From: a virus
IMG/VR virus record: IMGVR_UViG_3300005288_000021
Location: 1-43,791 of that record
Length of the DNA: 43,791 bases
Reading direction: 5' to 3' (one strand)
Positions 6,183 to 43,502 of the stretch are shown here, one piece after another. A program made the translations under genes and the position numbers. The notes below the pieces were generated by a model. It was not told the DNA's origin, searched no databases, and saw nothing but the letters and a program-made list of their open reading frames with translations. Within the stretch, counting starts at the first letter, position 1. Every line of letters begins with the position of its first letter.

Positions 6183-6367
6183 AAGTCGGCAAAGGATTTA
6201 TTTCTACCGGATTCGTCAAGGGCAAGAGCACTTGGTGGCACGTTCTCGTGTCGGTCGGCGCGCGATGGAAATTCTATTTCGTTAAGCCGCCGGGTAAACC
6301 TAGTTATCGACGGCTATATGTCGGCCCCTTCGAGCTGGAATGGAGCTGGTCGCCGAGGACTTTGTGA
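6179..6367 (+). CDS. Small unknown basic protein
   Basis: 62 aa beginning MKVGKGFISTGFVKGKSTWW. The ATG at 6179 overlaps the previous stop and has GAGGGG about 11 nt upstream. The protein is rich in aromatic and basic residues (WWHVLV, WKFYFVKPPGKPSYRR, ELEWSW), suggesting a single small beta-sheet domain. I recognise no family. Its stop overlaps the GTG start of the next gene (GTGA), so it is part of the same translational chain. Confidence 0.65.
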   Translation: MKVGKGFISTGFVKGKSTWWHVLVSVGARWKFYFVKPPGKPSYRRLYVGPFELEWSWSPRTL

Positions 6368-6915
6368 AAACCTTCGTCTGCATCGCCTCCGGCCCGAGCC
6401 TCCACGCGCAAGACTGCGAACTGGTAAGGGCCGCCGGCCTTCCCACAATCGCTGTGAACAACTCTTGGCAGTTAGCCCCGTGGTGCGATCACCTTTACGC
6501 AGGTGATCTCGCGTGGTGGGATGCGAACGTTTCCGAAGTGCCAGACGGCCCTAAGCGGTGGACGTGTACCCGCCAAGCGTCCGCAAAGCATGCTCTCAAT
6601 CTGCACACCGCATACGGCGAGTACAACAGCGGTCTACGGGCGATCGAACTGGCCTTTCAGCTAGGCGCAGAACGCGTCCTGCTTCTTGGGTACGACTGCA
6701 CGGTGCAAAGCGGTACGCACTGGCACGGCGACCATGCGGACACCAAGAACCCAGACGAAGCGTTGTGCAGGAAGTGGAACAAGCAGCATTGCCGGTTGGC
6801 GCAGCGCGATAAAGTTGTGAATTGTTCGCGTGACACGGCGCTGACCGCGTACCGTTTAGGCATGCTGGAAAAAGAGTTGCAAAAGGTTGTTGACACTTGT
6901 GATGCGAGTGATTAA
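6364..6915 (+). CDS. GT42/MAF (DUF115)-like transferase
   Basis: 183 aa. The GTG start at 6364 is preferred: it overlaps the previous stop (GTGA), has GAGG 6 nt before it, and begins directly on the first beta strand (KTFVCIASGPSL). An ATG 24 nt earlier is the alternative. IASGPSL followed by IAVNNSWQLAPWCDHLYAGD resembles the nucleotide-sugar pocket of MAF/DUF115 and GT42 sialyltransferase-like proteins; SGLRAIELAFQLGAERVLLLGYD resembles their second conserved block. It would modify a sugar or glycan, perhaps on a virion protein or the host surface. No signal peptide is present. It heads a trio with a GT9-like protein and a methyltransferase. The fold call is moderate; substrate unknown. Confidence 0.8.
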   Translation: MKTFVCIASGPSLHAQDCELVRAAGLPTIAVNNSWQLAPWCDHLYAGDLAWWDANVSEVPDGPKRWTCTRQASAKHALNLHTAYGEYNSGLRAIELAFQLGAERVLLLGYDCTVQSGTHWHGDHADTKNPDEALCRKWNKQHCRLAQRDKVVNCSRDTALTAYRLGMLEKELQKVVDTCDASD

Positions 6916-6918
6916 AGT
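6890..6918 (+). promoter_or_regulatory. Sigma70-type promoter for the structured RNA locus
   Basis: A perfect -35 box TTGACA (6890-6895), a 17-nt spacer, and TAAAGT (6913-6918, four of six bases of the -10 consensus). It overlaps the end of the preceding gene and points into the non-coding region, predicting a transcript from about 6925. It is one of the better rightward promoter matches I found in the structural half. Confidence 0.6.
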
Positions 6919-6975
6919 TCATTTCAACAGCGGACAGGCCGCTGAATACTAAAGCCGAGGGGCTAAGGAGATAGC

Positions 6976-7014
6976 ATGAAGCGATGTCAAAGCTTTCCCA
7001 AATTGGATAACTGA
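6976..7014 (+). CDS. Twelve-codon reading frame inside the RNA locus
   Basis: ATG at 6976 has AAGGAG 6 nt upstream, a near-ideal ribosome site, and the frame encodes MKRCQSFPKLDN before a TGA. The ribosome site is placed right after the AGCC/GGCT hairpin. Such a short, well-initiated frame in a structured RNA resembles a leader peptide controlling downstream folding, but no run of one amino acid codon is seen. It could also be a chance match. Confidence 0.4.
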   Translation: MKRCQSFPKLDN

Positions 7015-7144
7015 ATCCTGGTCGGCCGCGGTGCCAGCAAAGCTGGGCCGGTAGCCTTAGAGACGAACTGCGGTGCGCACTCTTTAAAAAGCGCATCACG
7101 TGATCAACCAGCACCAACCGATAAGTGGCCGCACATGCGGCAAG

Positions 7145-7257
7145 TTGCACCAGATGAATCTCTTGGACTAAGTCTCAAGTGGTTTGATCGCCACAGGTAG
7201 AGCTTCCGATGGGAGGTTGCAGGTTCGAATCCTGCGCAGGCGATTCATCTGGTGCAA
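7145..7257 (+). other. tRNA-like element: T-arm within a 16-bp perfect stem
   Basis: 7145-7160 and 7242-7257 are perfect 16-bp inverted repeats. Inside lie three further hairpins (about 7162-7179; GTGG/CCAC 7179-7194; CTTCC/GGGAG about 7203-7215) and a flawless tRNA T-arm at 7219-7235: 5-bp stem GCAGG/CCTGC with loop TTCGAAT. GGTAGAGC upstream looks like the 3' half of a D-arm. A normal cloverleaf cannot be drawn: the bases after the T-stem do not pair with a suitable 5' acceptor strand and the anticodon arm is too short. It is therefore a decayed tRNA or a tRNA-like fold, not a confident functional tRNA. The last 7 bases of the right arm could pair instead with TTGCACC at 7318-7324. Confidence 0.6.
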
Positions 7258-7350
7258 TTGAAAGCGGGGAGACGCCGTGTCATGCCATCGGCGCAGTCTC
7301 GCGGTAAGGCATACCCTTTGCACCTTCAAATTTCCCGTGCTGCGCCCTTC

Positions 7351-7375
7351 ACCCTGCTTCGGCGGGGTTCTTTTT
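7351..7375 (+). terminator. Rho-independent terminator closing the RNA locus
   Basis: A 7-bp stem ACCCTGC/GCGGGGT with one T-G pair and a stable TTCG loop, followed by TCTTTTT. It ends 12 nt before the ATG of the GT9-like gene, so expression of that gene would need readthrough or antitermination. Confidence 0.8.
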
Positions 7376-7387
7376 GAAAGAGGCTTT

Positions 7388-8221
7388 ATGATAATCCATT
7401 CAATGAAAGGCTTGGGCGACAATATCTACCAGCGCGCTTTCCTGAAGAACATGCCCGGCCCGATCTACCTCGACACCCCCTGGCCTGAACTCGTATCTGA
7501 TTTGCCGCATGTCCATTGCGTTCGACCTCAAACCAATCTGCGTACCCAAGCGAAGAACATCGCTCGGCATTCCTCTTGGCTTATGCCCCCGGCCAAGCAA
7601 CCAGCGAGACACATTCGCTACGGCACGGAAGGAATTATCCCCGGCATGATCGCCAGCTTCGGCGTAATGCCGGGCGAGTTTGACCTTCCTCCTCCCCCGC
7701 CGTCGCCCGAAACCGGTAAATACGTCGTTGTGCGCCCTGCTACCGTGCGTAGCGAGTGGCGAGCAGATACCCGGAATCCTTCGCCGGATTACATCCTTGT
7801 CGCCGCAGCGAATGCTAAGGCTCGCGGTTATAAAGTGATCAGCGTAGCTGACCTAGTAGACCGGGTAGAATGGATCGTCGGCGATGCCCCATACGCTGAC
7901 GTGCGATACCACAAAGGCGAACTGCCAGTCGAACAACTCCTCTCACTGGTCGCCAACGCCTCGGCGGTGATCGGCGGTATCGGATGGCTGGTGCCGGCGG
8001 CACTCGCTGCGAAAGTTCCCGCATGGATCATCTGCGGCGGCCAGGGCGGTTATAATGCCCCGGAGCTGATCACGCCAAAAGGTCAGAGCAATATCACATT
8101 CGCGGTGCCGGACAACTTCTGTCGCTGCCGCCTTAAACAACACAACTGCGACAAGAGGATTTCGGACTATGACTCAAAGCTTGCCCAGTGGGCTGACAGA
8201 CTGCTTCCTGTGGTCTCCTGA
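7388..8221 (+). CDS. Glycosyltransferase family 9-like protein
   Basis: 277 aa. The ATG at 7388 follows GAAAGAGG and starts MIIHSMKGLGDNIYQRAFL, the glycine turn seen at the N-terminus of ADP-heptose:LPS heptosyltransferase (GT9)-like proteins. A proline-rich linker (LPPPPPSPETGKYVVVRPA) joins to a C-terminal half with a Rossmann-like pattern and the GT9-type segment ASAVIGGIGWLVPAALAAKV, where sugar nucleotide binds. It ends with a cysteine cluster (FCRCRLKQHNCDK). It would transfer a sugar in the cytoplasm. It lies between the structured RNA and a methyltransferase that begins inside its last 53 nt, suggesting a common pathway. Confidence 0.82.
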   Translation: MIIHSMKGLGDNIYQRAFLKNMPGPIYLDTPWPELVSDLPHVHCVRPQTNLRTQAKNIARHSSWLMPPAKQPARHIRYGTEGIIPGMIASFGVMPGEFDLPPPPPSPETGKYVVVRPATVRSEWRADTRNPSPDYILVAAANAKARGYKVISVADLVDRVEWIVGDAPYADVRYHKGELPVEQLLSLVANASAVIGGIGWLVPAALAAKVPAWIICGGQGGYNAPELITPKGQSNITFAVPDNFCRCRLKQHNCDKRISDYDSKLAQWADRLLPVVS

Positions 8222-10908: not shown

Positions 10909-13857
10909 ATGGCGGTAGGCAGCCTCGGGCAATTAACTGTTGACCTCGTAGCGAATACCGCAGGTTTTGAGCGCGGTATGGATCAGGCCGAACGCGCTCT
11001 GGCTGCGACGACCCGCGAGGCAAAGCGTCAGGGCGAATCGCTGGAAAGACTGGTAGGTCAAATAGATCCAGTAGTAGGCGCCTTGAATCGCTTGGACGCG
11101 CAGCAGCAGAAGCTTGACGCGCATTTCAAAGCTGGGCGGCTGCCGGAAGACGAGTACAAACGCTTCACCGGCCTCTTGAATCAGCAGAAAGTTGCTGCTG
11201 AAGCCAACGTCGCAACCTTCGCCAAACTCGACAAAGCCTATAACGCCCAAGGACTTACTGCCAAACAACTGGCGGCGAACTTGCGCGGCGTACCAGCCCA
11301 GTTCACTGACATCGCGGTATCCCTCCAAGCCGGTCAAAACCCGCTAACTGTCTTCCTCCAGCAGGGAGGTCAGCTTAAAGACATGTTTGGTGGTATTGGT
11401 CCTGCTGCGAGAGCCCTGGGGGGCTATGTCCTGGGACTGGTCAACCCGTTCACTGTTGCCGCGGCAGCAGCTGCTGCTCTAGCTCTTGCGTACAAGCAGG
11501 GCAGCGACGAGACAACCGCTTTCAGCACCGCGCTCGCGATGACAGGCAACACTGCCGGCACCACGACTGCGCAGCTCTCCGGCCTCGCGCAGCAGATCTC
11601 CTTGACCGGCGGTACGGTCGGCAAGGCTGCGGGTGTACTCGCCCAGCTGGCCGCATCCACGCGTATCCCGAAAGAAGCTTTCGAGAGTATCGCCGTGGCG
11701 GCGATCGCCTTCGAGAAAGCGACGGGGCAGGCTGCGGAAGAAACGGTCAAGAACTTCGAGAAGATTGCTAAAGATCCGGCCGGCGAAATTCTCAAGCTCA
11801 ACGAGTCCATGAACTTCCTGACTGCCTCCACTTACGAGCAGATCAAGGCGTTGCAGGAACAGGGCAAGGTGCAAGAGGCCGCACAACTCGCCAACGAAGC
11901 CTATGAAGGCGGACTGGAGCGTACGGCGGTGTCTGTTCAGAAGAACCTCGGATACCTGGAAACAGGTTGGAACGCTGTCAAGGGTGCAGCCAAAGCTGCG
12001 TGGGATGCCGCCCTTAATATCGGGCGCGAAGACACTCTCGATCAGCAGCTGAAGAAACTGGACGACCAGCTCAATGCTATAGCGAATGCGCGCCGACTGA
12101 ATTCCGGTGACGGCATCGGCAATTTGGCACCGAGCGATAGTTTCCGGGAAGAGGCGTTGCAGGCTGAGAAAACCCAGAAGCTCATCCTAAAAGAAGAACA
12201 GGATCGCCGCGCCGCCGCCAAAGGCTTTCAACAGCAAGCCCAGAAGCAAGCCTTGGATGATCAGCTTGAAATCGATAAGCTGCGCAAGGAAACAGAATCA
12301 AACGCCGATAAGCGGGCGAGAGAGACTGCAAACTATCGGCTCTTGGTAGAACGTCGCGTTCAGGAAGCCCGAAAGACGGGCGACAACTCGTTGCTTATTT
12401 CGGCAACCGAACAAGCGCGTCAAATTGCAGCTATCAACGAGAAGTATAAAGATCCAAAAGTTGCGAAGACGCCGGCTGTTCGGGAAGACGCCGGGCAGAA
12501 ACTGCTAGGAACCCTCCGTGAACAAGCCGCCGCGTTGCAGATGCAGTCTGACTCGATCGATGAGCAGACCGGCAAATACAAAACTCTCGGCGTTCAAGCC
12601 AAAGCACTGGCCGAGTTTGAGCAACGCATCGCGAACATCAAAGAAACAAAGGTACAGACTGCTGATCAAAAGTCTATTCTCGCTAGCCAAGATCTATTGC
12701 GCGCTCAGCTCAAGCGAAACGTGGCGCTTGAGCAAGAGATCGCAGCCCGTAAGACCGCCTACGAAGATGAGCAAAAGCTTGCAGCGTTTCGGGAAAACCA
12801 GTCATCCAAGTTGAGTCAAGCACAGGACGGTTTGAACTCCTCCCTGACTGGTTTGGGTTTTGGTGAGAAGCTTCGTGAACGGCTGAAAGAAGACTTGGCG
12901 ATCCGTAAGGAATACCAGTCCGAAGTCGACAAGCTGAATAACCAGCTGAACAAGGGTCAGATTAGTCAAGACCTGTACCAGCAGGAAACGGATATCCTTG
13001 AAGAGAACTTGGCTTCGCGCTTGGTCATGCAGCAGGACTACTACAACCAGCTCGACGAAGCGCAGGGCTCGTTCTTCATGGGCGCCTCGGAAGCTTGGGC
13101 GAACTGGGCGGATGAAGCGCAGAACTACAGCGCTCAAGCCACTGAGTTCGTAACCGGCACTCTCGACACACTGAGCTCCGGGCTTGCGGATAGCTTCATG
13201 TCGATCCTCGATGGAACTTCGACGGTAGGTGAAGCCTTTCAGAACCTCGCCGCAACCATGGTCAAGTCGATCGTAGGCGCGTTGGTACAAATGGCAGCGC
13301 AGTGGCTGGTATATCAAGCCGTTACGCTCTTGGCGGGCAAAGCGACACAGGCGAGCGCAGCGACAGCGCTTGTAGCTAACGCCCAGGCGACAGCCTTCCA
13401 GGCCTCCTTGGCGGCATTCGCTTCTACGGCGGCTATCCCAATTGTCGGGCCTATTCTCGCACCGGCGGCGGCGGCTTCCGCGGCGGCATTCGCCGCCCCC
13501 CTTGTCGCTGGTGTGGCGACCAGCGCGTTAGCGGGTATGGCCCACGACGGTATTGACTCCATCCCGGAGACCGGCACTTGGCTGCTCCAGAAGGGCGAAC
13601 GGGTAACCACTGCTGATACTAGTGCCAAGTTGGATAAAACCCTGGACGACGTACAAAAGAACAGAACGAACAACAACGCGGGCGGCCAAACTGTTAACAT
13701 CATTGAAGACGCCTCTAAAGCCGGCCAAACGCGCACCAAACTGGACGATCAGGGTATGCAGGAAATTACAGACGTATTCGTTTCGCAGATCTACGGAGAC
13801 GGTCCGGTCGGAGAAGCCATGCAACAACGTTTTGGTTTACGGGGCCAAGGCGTATGA
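10909..13857 (+). CDS. Tape measure protein
   Basis: 982 aa, the longest gene. The start MAVGSLGQLTVDLVANTAGF with ERGMDQAERAL is the usual opening of lambda gpH-like tape measure proteins. Residues about 110-180 contain QFTDIAVSLQAGQNPLTVFL and a hydrophobic Ala-rich stretch; long coiled coils follow (about 400-700), then a second hydrophobic, Ala-rich region near 800-880 that may insert into the host membrane. The protein sets tail length and is ejected before DNA. AAGGAAA provides the ribosome site. No peptidase or lysozyme motif was seen. Confidence 0.95.
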   Translation: MAVGSLGQLTVDLVANTAGFERGMDQAERALAATTREAKRQGESLERLVGQIDPVVGALNRLDAQQQKLDAHFKAGRLPEDEYKRFTGLLNQQKVAAEANVATFAKLDKAYNAQGLTAKQLAANLRGVPAQFTDIAVSLQAGQNPLTVFLQQGGQLKDMFGGIGPAARALGGYVLGLVNPFTVAAAAAAALALAYKQGSDETTAFSTALAMTGNTAGTTTAQLSGLAQQISLTGGTVGKAAGVLAQLAASTRIPKEAFESIAVAAIAFEKATGQAAEETVKNFEKIAKDPAGEILKLNESMNFLTASTYEQIKALQEQGKVQEAAQLANEAYEGGLERTAVSVQKNLGYLETGWNAVKGAAKAAWDAALNIGREDTLDQQLKKLDDQLNAIANARRLNSGDGIGNLAPSDSFREEALQAEKTQKLILKEEQDRRAAAKGFQQQAQKQALDDQLEIDKLRKETESNADKRARETANYRLLVERRVQEARKTGDNSLLISATEQARQIAAINEKYKDPKVAKTPAVREDAGQKLLGTLREQAAALQMQSDSIDEQTGKYKTLGVQAKALAEFEQRIANIKETKVQTADQKSILASQDLLRAQLKRNVALEQEIAARKTAYEDEQKLAAFRENQSSKLSQAQDGLNSSLTGLGFGEKLRERLKEDLAIRKEYQSEVDKLNNQLNKGQISQDLYQQETDILEENLASRLVMQQDYYNQLDEAQGSFFMGASEAWANWADEAQNYSAQATEFVTGTLDTLSSGLADSFMSILDGTSTVGEAFQNLAATMVKSIVGALVQMAAQWLVYQAVTLLAGKATQASAATALVANAQATAFQASLAAFASTAAIPIVGPILAPAAAASAAAFAAPLVAGVATSALAGMAHDGIDSIPETGTWLLQKGERVTTADTSAKLDKTLDDVQKNRTNNNAGGQTVNIIEDASKAGQTRTKLDDQGMQEITDVFVSQIYGDGPVGEAMQQRFGLRGQGV

Positions 13858-27501: not shown

Positions 27502-27530
27502 AGCTTATGCAAGATTCGACTTGTAGTCAA
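27502..27530 (-). promoter_or_regulatory. Leftward sigma70-type promoter with operator-like inverted repeat
   Basis: On the minus strand: TTGACT (27530-27525), 17-nt spacer, TAAGCT (27507-27502). The spacer contains TACAA, 8 nt, TTGCA, one mismatch from the perfect repeat at 23393-23410. The first 11 bases (TTGACTACAAG) are identical in the two promoters. The boxes overlap the last codons of the polymerase gene by a few bases. Confidence 0.58.
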
Positions 27531-28519
27531 CCTTTCCTGTAGCGATACGCTTCGAAGCCGGCCGCGGCGAGGGGTAGGCCTTCTGTCCAGTCGCAACCGG
27601 CTGACATCAGTTCGGCCAGGTGTTCGTGCGTGTAATCGTCGGTATCCGGCGCTTCGCTGATGATCTCGTCGTGGACGGTTAACACAATTTCGTAACCGGC
27701 GGATTCTATGGGTTTCATCGAGTAGGCGAGGACATCGCGCGCCGCCGCTTGGCACATATTTTCACAGAGCTTCCCCGAATATGTGCGCAACCTCTCCCAT
27801 TTGCGGGAATATTGATTGATACCCATAAAGGTGATCTGACCGTCATCCTCGACACGCGGGGATGGGTAGCAGAGATACCGTCCGGAAGGCAACATTACGC
27901 GGAGCCAGGCGCCATCGCGGCGAATCTTATGACGGCGGCAGGTGTAGGTTTGGCCCGGGTTGTTAATCGCCGTCCTGCAGCTATTCTCGATATCCTTCCA
28001 ATACGTCGAGGTGTTGGGATGCGCCTCGCGCCACAGACGCTTAAAGCTATCGCAGACGATGAACGCGCGATCACTCAAACCGTATTGGCTTTTACCCTGG
28101 CCGAGTTGCCATTCCAGGAAACTCGACGCTTCGTCGAGGGTGCTCTTAGGGATCGCGTCGATCGCCCGTTCGGCCATGGCTTCCAAGTCGATATTGAACG
28201 CCAAGGAGAATGTTATAAAGGCGCCTACCCCACCGGCGTACCCGAGCGCCAATTCCATCGTTTTACCGATCTGCCGCATGTCCTTATCGACGTCTGCAGG
28301 GTTAATCCCGAACGCTTTGGCGTAGGCCAATTTGTAGAGGTCGAAACCCCGGCCGGCGTCGAAGTCACGGAACGCCTGGAGTTTCCATTCTTCCCCGGCC
28401 AGCCATGCGAGCACTCGACCCTCAATATTGCTGAGGTCGGCGATCACAAATTTTTTGCCCTTGGGCGCGATGAACACTCCGCGCACAGCGCTTGAGCATT
28501 TTTCCATTACCGTACTCAT
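27527..28519 (-). CDS. DNA polymerase family A, palm/fingers part
   Basis: 330 aa containing the polymerase core: motif A FVIADLSNIEGRVLAWLAG (metal ligand D28), motif B MRQIGKTMELALGYAGGVGA (residues 81-100) and motif C EIVLTVHDEIISE (D284). It lacks the exonuclease and the first part of the polymerase domain, which are in the gene before it. The two frames meet at an ATGA overlap. Together they would make a 686-residue enzyme, the usual length of single-chain phage family A polymerases. It could work as a two-subunit enzyme, be joined by frameshifting, or reflect a frame error. Confidence 0.92.
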   Translation of the reverse strand: MSTVMEKCSSAVRGVFIAPKGKKFVIADLSNIEGRVLAWLAGEEWKLQAFRDFDAGRGFDLYKLAYAKAFGINPADVDKDMRQIGKTMELALGYAGGVGAFITFSLAFNIDLEAMAERAIDAIPKSTLDEASSFLEWQLGQGKSQYGLSDRAFIVCDSFKRLWREAHPNTSTYWKDIENSCRTAINNPGQTYTCRRHKIRRDGAWLRVMLPSGRYLCYPSPRVEDDGQITFMGINQYSRKWERLRTYSGKLCENMCQAAARDVLAYSMKPIESAGYEIVLTVHDEIISEAPDTDDYTHEHLAELMSAGCDWTEGLPLAAAGFEAYRYRKG

Positions 28520-29586
28520 AGCAAGTCCTCAGCGTCATTCAGAAGCTCTTCGATTGCGCGGTCTACGCCTTCAGGAGAAAGCGTACTCCTGCTGAGATTC
28601 TGCGGTTGTAGAAGGCGACCCGCCCACCGCCCCGTGCGCAATGCCCCACAAAACGCAAGAAGCCCCCTCAGCCTGCCGTCGGCACTAACGCCGTTCAGAA
28701 CACGTTTGTACTTCGACACACTGGTTTTTGACGCTTGAAGTCTGACGGCCAGCAGTTCGCGCAACTCCACCGGTAGATCCGGATCATCGATGCGACGCTC
28801 CAGCGTACTGATCTGAAGGTCAGGTAAGCCGACGCCGTAAGCTTCCAGGATATGCTCCAGCATCTTGTCGCGCTGGTTGGCACTGGTCACGGCGCCATCG
28901 GTCAAACGCGCTGCATCGGCGGCGTGGATCACCTGAGCACGATCCGAAGCGCGGATCGCAGCGTGCGCCAAGTCCAGGTCCATCAGCACACCGCGTTCGT
29001 TGATCTTCTGGTCGAGGTGCCACAGTTCCAGTTCTGCGCCGCGGTAATTCCAGCGGGGGAGCTTTTTGTAGATCTCGCGCATCGCCTCGATGTCAAGACC
29101 GCCATAGTCGCGAAAGCGTTGCCACTCTATCGGGTGCGTTGCTTTCGTGGCCCGGCGTATTTTGCGACCCTTCGGTTGAGGTTTGCAGAATAACGAGATC
29201 CATGTCCGCCCTTCCTTGTCCTTAGCCTTATCGGTCGCGACGCCAAGAATGGAACATAGAGTCCCGAGTGAACCCGGCAAAGAGTGCGCCATGGCGCAGA
29301 CCATGGTGTCGAAAACGCGTTCCACAGGAAGGCTAATACCGTTGTGGGCCATAACCGTCCGATCAAACGCCGAATTGTGGATAACAATTTCATAATCTGG
29401 ATCCTCTAAAACAGTGAGCAAGTCGCTTATATCTTCATCCCCATCGCGAATGATTACTTCCCCATCGCCGACCGCCCACTGCCACATGATGATTTCGGCG
29501 CCTTCTGCGTAACGGTGCGTCCCGTTGTTGATCGGCGTTTCGCAGAAGGTTTCCGTGTCGAGGAAAATGCATTTGTCGAGGTTCAT
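28516..29586 (-). CDS. DNA polymerase family A, exonuclease and thumb part
   Basis: 356 aa. CIFLDTETF (D10, E12) is Exo motif I of the 3'-5' proofreading domain, IVIHNSAFDRTVMAHNGI is motif II, and FRDYGGLDIEAMREIYK is motif III. The C-terminal 170 residues continue into the polymerase domain: QINERGVLMD-like start (KINERGVLMDLDLAHAAIRA) and GALRTGRWAGRLLQPQNLSR, the segment before the palm. It then stops at EELLNDAEDLL, exactly where other family A enzymes run on into the motif A region. Confidence 0.9.
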   Translation of the reverse strand: MNLDKCIFLDTETFCETPINNGTHRYAEGAEIIMWQWAVGDGEVIIRDGDEDISDLLTVLEDPDYEIVIHNSAFDRTVMAHNGISLPVERVFDTMVCAMAHSLPGSLGTLCSILGVATDKAKDKEGRTWISLFCKPQPKGRKIRRATKATHPIEWQRFRDYGGLDIEAMREIYKKLPRWNYRGAELELWHLDQKINERGVLMDLDLAHAAIRASDRAQVIHAADAARLTDGAVTSANQRDKMLEHILEAYGVGLPDLQISTLERRIDDPDLPVELRELLAVRLQASKTSVSKYKRVLNGVSADGRLRGLLAFCGALRTGRWAGRLLQPQNLSRSTLSPEGVDRAIEELLNDAEDLL

Positions 29587-42701: not shown

Positions 42702-43155
42702 AGACGAACTGCTCAAGGTCTACAATTTCCTCTACTCTGCCGCGCCCGCCGAAAGATCGGAAATGGGATGGCCTCTATGCGTTTACTGCGGCGATCCTGC
42801 TGATTGCATAGATCACGCTCCACCACTCTCTAAAGTTTCTCAATACCGCGCCCTAGGCGTTCACAGGGAAATGTATCTCTTAGTCAAAGCCTGCAAGCCC
42901 TGCAACATGATGCTCGGGTCTACCGTCCAGACCGATATCCTGTCCCGTATCGACGAAGCAAAGGGCCTGATCCGCAAGAAGCTAGGGCGAAGGGATGTCG
43001 GGTACACCTGGGCAGAAGAGGATCTAAACGACCTCGGACGCAACCTCAGGAGTCACGTTGGTTCGGCAATGCGAAAGACCGAGTCTTTGATACGCCGCAT
43101 TGAGTATCGAGGCGGATACCGCGCAGTGCTCGGCATGCTTAGGGATACGGAGTAA
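42688..43155 (+). CDS. HNH-type zinc-binding nuclease-like protein
   Basis: 155 aa from ATG 42688 (GGGAG upstream). WPLCVYCGDPADCIDHAPPL then LLVKACKPCNMMLGS is a treble-clef HNH core: Cys pair, Asp-His and second Cys pair with Asn. The spacing is unusual and the C-terminal 75 residues are helical. It may nick DNA during packaging or replication, or be a non-catalytic relative. It overlaps the classical HNH gene after it (TAATG). Confidence 0.75.
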   Translation: MSQTRDELLKVYNFLYSAAPAERSEMGWPLCVYCGDPADCIDHAPPLSKVSQYRALGVHREMYLLVKACKPCNMMLGSTVQTDILSRIDEAKGLIRKKLGRRDVGYTWAEEDLNDLGRNLRSHVGSAMRKTESLIRRIEYRGGYRAVLGMLRDTE

Positions 43156-43502
43156 TGGCTAAGTCCAGGGTCACCATGCAGCCCACCCGAGCGCGTGAGA
43201 TCAGCACGCAGGCTGTGCAGATGCTCAACCCTGACGCATGGCGTGAAGGGTTGACCACAGCGCAACGTGGGTATGGTGGTAAGTGGCAGCGCTACAGGCT
43301 GAAGTTCCTCGAGAGGAACGTGCTGTGCGTCATGTGCCACGCCCAAGGCAAGGTGACTGAGGCCACGGTCGTTGACCACATCGTTGACCACAGGGGCAAC
43401 CAGGCGCTGTTCTGGGATCGGGCTAACCACCAGGCCCTGTGCAAGCCCTGCCACAGCGTCAAGACGGCAGCTGAAGGCGTAGGCGCTGCGCGCCGAGGCT
43501 AG
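43155..43502 (+). CDS. HNH endonuclease (terminase-associated type)
   Basis: 115 aa. KFLERNVLCVMCHAQGKVTE, TVVDHIVDHRGNQALFWDRA and NHQALCKPCHSVKT form a complete HNH motif with four zinc-binding cysteines and the catalytic Asp-His, preceded by a basic region (YGGKWQRYRLK). The same type (as in HK97 gp74) lies next to the small terminase gene in many cos phages and is needed for packaging. The terminase genes would be expected directly after this, beyond the window. Confidence 0.92.
   Translation: MAKSRVTMQPTRAREISTQAVQMLNPDAWREGLTTAQRGYGGKWQRYRLKFLERNVLCVMCHAQGKVTEATVVDHIVDHRGNQALFWDRANHQALCKPCHSVKTAAEGVGAARRG

Follow-up and report, generated by a model that had tools for sequence, protein, structure and literature searches.

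Phages are known to counter host defences mostly with proteins, and the few RNA decoys described so far each address one system. In phage PhiTE, the toxin of an abortive-infection system is suppressed by pseudo-ToxI, a noncoding mimic of an antitoxin RNA (PMC3475682). RNA anti-CRISPRs (Racrs) are phage-borne solitary mimics of the RNA of a defence system (PMC10651486). The AbiF toxin is neutralised by direct binding of the abiF RNA, both in cis and in trans (PMC12373285). Finally, phage tRNAs with altered anticodon loops escape anticodon nucleases (PMC10264068), and phage tRNAs are also used against retrons (PMC11555353). Here, we describe a stretch of a soil phage that appears, from its sequence, to code for no protein and no normal tRNA and to specify a structured RNA of about 450 bases. 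The structured RNA element is genuine, and we found no description of such an RNA island in the open-access literature.

The interval (positions 6916-7387 of the window, i.e., of the whole stretch of 43,791 nucleotides that was analysed) is flanked by an ORF at 6340-6915 (phrog_4603) and by a phrog_6804 gene that starts at 7388. We infer that it is transcribed as a noncoding RNA running from a promoter to a terminator (Table 1). The fold of 6916-7375 has a z-score of -3.5, and an equivalent promoter-to-terminator interval was seen in 39 related cassettes (loci are labelled L followed by a number). Since coding sequence extends into its -35 region, the conservation of the promoter in D3-like relatives is confounded. 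A better argument that it is a promoter comes from L145 and L206, where promoter-like sites follow unrelated genes; that of L203 has a different sequence. Searches of the window with Rfam at the gathering threshold gave no match, and neither ARAGORN nor Rfam detected a tmRNA. The leader of the putative RNA also contains a tiny ORF (MKRCQSFPKLDN, 6976-7014) with a good ribosome-binding site (AAGGAG), and tiny ORFs likewise open the cassettes of L010, L012, and L141.

Table 1. Features of the putative RNA and of its promoter, in coordinates of the window.
Feature	Position	Strand	Basis
Promoter of the sigma70 type (TTGACA-17-TAAAGT), where the upstream ORF ends	6890-6918	+	sequence
Inferred noncoding transcript (RNA island), ~450 nt	6922-7375	+	promoter-terminator span, fold, relatives
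Leader module: hairpin CAGCGG/CCGCTG, then stem GGCTAAGG../..TAGCC	6926-7058	+	sequence, fold
H-type pseudoknot PK2: S1 GAG/CTC, S2 GGTGCGC/GCGCATC, A-rich linker	7060-7099	+	compensatory changes
Recurrent junction motif CAACCARCGCC; window version CAACCAGCACC	7105-7115	+	most cassettes, all contexts seen
Small hairpin CCGC-ACAT-GCGG, shortly 5' of the long stem	7129-7140	+	conserved; present in relatives
Arm a of the long stem	7145-7160	+	first 8 nt (TTGCACCA) near-invariant in 19 families, remainder covarying
Slot B insert, tRNA-like module	7161-7241	+	sequence, fold, sibling inserts
D-loop-like GGTAGAGC in slot B	7196-7203	+	sequence
Shortened anticodon arm CTTCC-GAT-GGGAG in slot B	7203-7215	+	sequence
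Canonical tRNA T-arm GCAGG-TTCGAAT-CCTGC	7219-7235	+	sequence, Rfam tRNA fragment
Arm b of the long stem	7242-7257	+	alignment of relatives
Slot C insert, closed by the alternative stem b:a'	7258-7317	+	same insert in L028
a', TTGCACC, alternative partner of b	7318-7324	+	relatives, constrained folds
Intrinsic terminator hairpin, then TCTTTTT	7351-7368	+	sequence

The locus had been singled out by a first-pass annotation for a tRNA T-arm held within a long perfect stem. Its coordinates proved exact to the base for both arms (TTGCACCAGATGAATC, 7145-7160, and GATTCATCTGGTGCAA, 7242-7257), for the T-arm (7219-7235), for the two copies of TTGCACC (7145 and 7318), and for GGTGCAA (7251). The enclosure of the T-arm is borne out by folding, as the hairpin folds alone with a z-score of -6.0 and the long stem is retained when the entire 460-nt interval is folded to its energy minimum. 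The absence of a cloverleaf, also proposed there, agrees with ARAGORN, which called no tRNA in the whole window, and at a relaxed threshold the Rfam tRNA model recovered only the T-arm (7214-7235, 15.8 bits for a threshold of 29). The module has the T-arm of a tRNA, with its TTCGAAT loop, and lacks a program-called cloverleaf with a 7-nt anticodon loop. We regard it as a probable tRNA-derived fold that would be unable to decode, since a long covarying stem takes the place of the acceptor and the anticodon loop is cut down.

The long stem was analysed in a manual alignment of 19 families. Its first eight pairs (TTGCACCA/TGGTGCAA) scarcely vary. The next, inner ten pairs are strongly variable, yet paired in 187 of the 190 cells (a 2-nt bulge in five families was taken out by hand for this count). 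When arms were swapped between families, the mean was about 115 paired cells, with a maximum of 142 in 2,000 trials. This comparison indicates that the long stem is not a product of chance. The variable cells include 13 G-T and only 3 A-C or C-A combinations on the + strand, which favours an RNA of this strand over a DNA structure.

We used the downstream protein (phrog_6804) as a query and obtained 80 viral loci. The loci nearest to the window belong to uncultured phages, and the nearest named ones to D3-like Pseudomonas phages. The uncultured relatives likewise have a promoter-to-terminator cassette in this interval, and its content is highly variable: close phages differ almost wholly in their modules, and the hairpin is absent from many sibling cassettes. 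Pattern scans also found the frame in other phages, directly behind the large terminase gene. Judged by these matches, uncultured D3-like phages and other phages carry the element, which occupies at least two genomic locations. The D3-like prophage relatives that we examined share the flanking protein gene and have no cassette at that place. The cassette is not covered by any record of an isolated phage; matches there were tRNAs, terminators, and weak short ones. A scan of 84,980 species genomes for the frame pattern returned 48 stretches, all of which lack the extended frame stem. In L003, L023, and L027, the cassette upstream of the phrog_6804 homologue is replaced by small ORFs that resemble homing-type endonucleases by eye.

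The anatomy of the island is well supported: its slots carry interchangeable modules, which are true tRNAs, tRNA-like folds with a disrupted anticodon, or H-type pseudoknots. The T-arm hairpin of the window is one slot of this modular RNA (slot B, between a and b), not a stand-alone switch. T-arms occur 23 times in the 39 related cassettes, for 1.2 expected from shuffles, and some sibling cassettes carry ordinary tRNAs (Trp, Gln, Gly, Met, and others). Slot B is tRNA-like in the window, L011, L032, L132, and L145, and contains other folds elsewhere; the insert of L132, whose anticodon arm is replaced, reaches 26.9 bits against the tRNA model, slightly below the threshold. Slot C is tRNA-like in L008, L010, and L030 (those of L010 and L030 are called by the tRNA program), so that b:a' is there an extended acceptor stem. 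By eye, we also observed a long hairpin (GTAGG...CCTAC) in L015 (3599-3988) and L097 (12618-13100); the tRNA-like fold inside it has a CGAA loop where the anticodon loop would be.

The H-type pseudoknots, with A-rich linkers, are located upstream of the frame. They are predicted from the complementarity of S1 and S2 and from compensated changes, and such a fold is one mark of type III antitoxins. In PK2, with compensatory changes in L007, L005, and L088, S1 changes from GAG/CTC to AGG/CCT and S2 reads GGTGCGC/GCGCATC, GTGGGC/GCCCAC, or GGGTCC/GGGCCC. In PK1, S1 changes from GAGG/CCTC to GTGG/CCAC and S2 from CTCGG/CCGAG to CCGGG/CCCGG. Other marks of type III antitoxins, namely tandem repeats with a toxin gene or a known family, were not found: the modules are not tandem repeats, the next gene is phrog_6804, and Rfam gives no match. 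In searches run without a positive control, the PK2 pattern was found in cassettes only, no pseudoknot module adjoined a toxin gene, and the combination of module M6 and PK1 had no match in phages, plasmids, and 298 Pseudomonadaceae genomes. A broad automatic pseudoknot scan was discarded as too unspecific, and no covariance model was built from the MAFFT alignment because it misplaced the pseudoknot stems. Module M6 (TGTCCTAGGCACGTAGCAGC...) is also found in a phage contig of a third type (L202, around 2076 on the minus strand, 12184-12203 on the plus strand), in which TATCG/CGATA becomes TGTCC/GGACA, an apparently compensated change.

One relative carries a module of a known antitoxin family. 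Positions 5825-5788 of L127 match the abiF RNA (Rfam RF03085, 43.5 bits for a threshold of 37). This RNA sits between a CAACCAACGCC motif and the CCGC hairpin, immediately 5' of the latter, in the slot that is filled by pseudoknots elsewhere. Because they occupy the same position, we take the other pseudoknots as candidate antitoxin mimics. Across the relatives' cassettes, Rfam identified tRNA and abiF only, without GOLLD, ROOL, or any other family, and L127 is the one examined cassette with a match to a known antitoxin; the window has none. Six further records gave abiF matches below the threshold, all of which we treated as chance; the three that we placed (L032, L005, and L006) fall outside the cassettes. 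In Pseudomonadaceae, the abiF RNA adjoins an Abi_2 gene in three (L288, L290, and L292) of the loci that we opened.

These features bring the island close to the described systems and also set it apart from them. Its nearest point of contact with the AbiF system is the true abiF RNA in the slot of L127 (RF03085; PMC12373285). It differs in that this RNA is solitary within an RNA island, with no Abi_2 (abiF) gene found in the 46.8-kb record of L127 (a single contig that may be incomplete) or in the window, and in that the window has no covariance-model score above gathering for RF03085. A lone antitoxin-type RNA in a phage is reminiscent of pseudo-ToxI (PMC3475682). However, pseudo-ToxI consists of repeats resembling one antitoxin, whereas the island is a mosaic of modules and tRNAs with a conserved hairpin frame, and we found no ToxI match in it. 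Like Racrs, the abiF RNA of L127 is solitary in a phage; Racrs imitate CRISPR repeats (PMC10651486), and we noticed no module of that kind in the island. The island shares with anti-defence phage tRNAs the carriage of tRNAs (PMC10264068, PMC11555353), but many of its tRNA-like folds have no usable anticodon and are set within long stems.

Of the functions considered, anti-defence is the best supported: the region would be a phage RNA island that carries decoy antitoxins together with tRNA-like RNAs. We give this reading, which is drawn from one identified module, about an even chance. The island, which has a promoter and a terminator to itself and interchangeable structured modules set in conserved slots, would be transcribed once the phage has infected a cell. 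Its pseudoknots would then keep the toxins of abortive-infection or type III systems inactive by imitating their antitoxin RNAs. By analogy with known phage tRNAs, the tRNAs and tRNA-like folds may replace or decoy the targets of tRNA-cleaving defences, and the exchange between a, b, and a' would perhaps serve the processing of modules. In line with it are the lone abiF antitoxin-type RNA in L127, the covarying stem and pseudoknots, the conserved b:a' match, the promoter and terminator, the T-arms and tRNAs, and the mobility of the cassette, which in some phages follows the terminase gene; against it stand the restriction of the known antitoxin to L127 and the failure to find a pseudoknot module beside a toxin gene. 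We also propose, more tentatively and at somewhat less than an even chance, that this is a new class of element: a hypervariable fixed-slot RNA island that collects and exchanges decoys against AbiF-like systems, type III toxins, and tRNA nucleases, and in which the three-copy stem (a, b, and a') would allow the modules to fold, or to undergo processing, independently of one another. If such a many-decoy island exists, its modules would be a catalogue for finding unknown RNA-antitoxin defence systems, and it would explain why phages retain tRNA-like folds lacking an anticodon. Even without a function, the island is a well-supported structured RNA element covered by no Rfam family.

The first-pass annotation had instead read the two pairings of b as a switch, and part of this reading holds. 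The mutually exclusive pairings are real, since b and a' match perfectly in 19 of 23 loci, for 3.15 expected from dinucleotide shuffles. In L008 and L030, a' pairs by wobble. In L203 and L204, two near-identical contigs that we scored as one lineage, the three copies are altered in step (a, b, and a' are TTTCACCA, TGGTGAAA, and TTTCGCCA); this suggests that both pairings are maintained, with gene conversion in a single lineage as an alternative. Folding with constrained pairings, as had been advised, showed that only the outer 7 bp exchange: the inner stem remains, and slot C becomes a second domain with b:a' as its closing stem. Moreover, a:b is more stable than b:a' by 3.2-14.3 kcal/mol in 17 families. 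The terminator hairpin shares no bases with either pairing, whereas in a riboswitch or attenuator a pairing would touch it. The mismatches of a' in L009, L032, L141, and L142 are uncompensated, the content and length of slot C vary freely, and in L144 this slot is empty and b directly touches a'. A conformational switch in which b swaps between a and a' and controls termination, processing, or the exposure of TTGCACCA is possible, and we consider it unlikely.

Three further explanations fare worse. The region could be a decaying array of phage tRNAs, the T-arm hairpin being a pseudogene and the remainder drift. The real tRNAs of the siblings, the T-arm and D-loop remnants of the window, and the tRNA-model score of the L132 insert are all compatible with decay, but pseudogenes would not retain a perfect covarying stem or covarying pseudoknots, and this covariation largely refutes the explanation. 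The abiF RNA, moreover, does not belong to the tRNAs, and we hold decay to be quite improbable. An equally poor prospect is that the RNA serves as a scaffold or in packaging, or that it is one of the ornate RNAs, such as GOLLD and ROOL, and bears decorations that differ by lineage: although the island is a large, structured, and tRNA-associated phage RNA that adjoins the terminase gene in several phages, Rfam matches it to no such family, its modules differ almost totally among close phages, and many siblings lack the hairpin. The sequence might also act as DNA, as an attachment or recombination site (an attP in a tRNA 3' end, or an attC-like hairpin) whose inverted repeats serve the insertion of modules. 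The palindromic empty form in L144 (TGGTGCAATTGCACCA), the tRNA-derived sequence, and the clear swapping of modules would fit such a site. However, no tyrosine integrase was found in the record, which led us to reject the attP idea, the replication genes are of virulent type, and the excess of G-T cells points to RNA, which makes a DNA-level element highly improbable.

Elsewhere in the window, the DNA polymerase is apparently split into two adjacent overlapping ORFs on the minus strand (27527-28519 and 28516-29586), each of which matches a part of phrog_17 (exonuclease-side and polymerase-side). A gene for a collagen-repeat tail fibre (1850-2878) lies between the capsid and portal genes, and an HNH endonuclease gene (43155-43502) is found close to the end of the contig.
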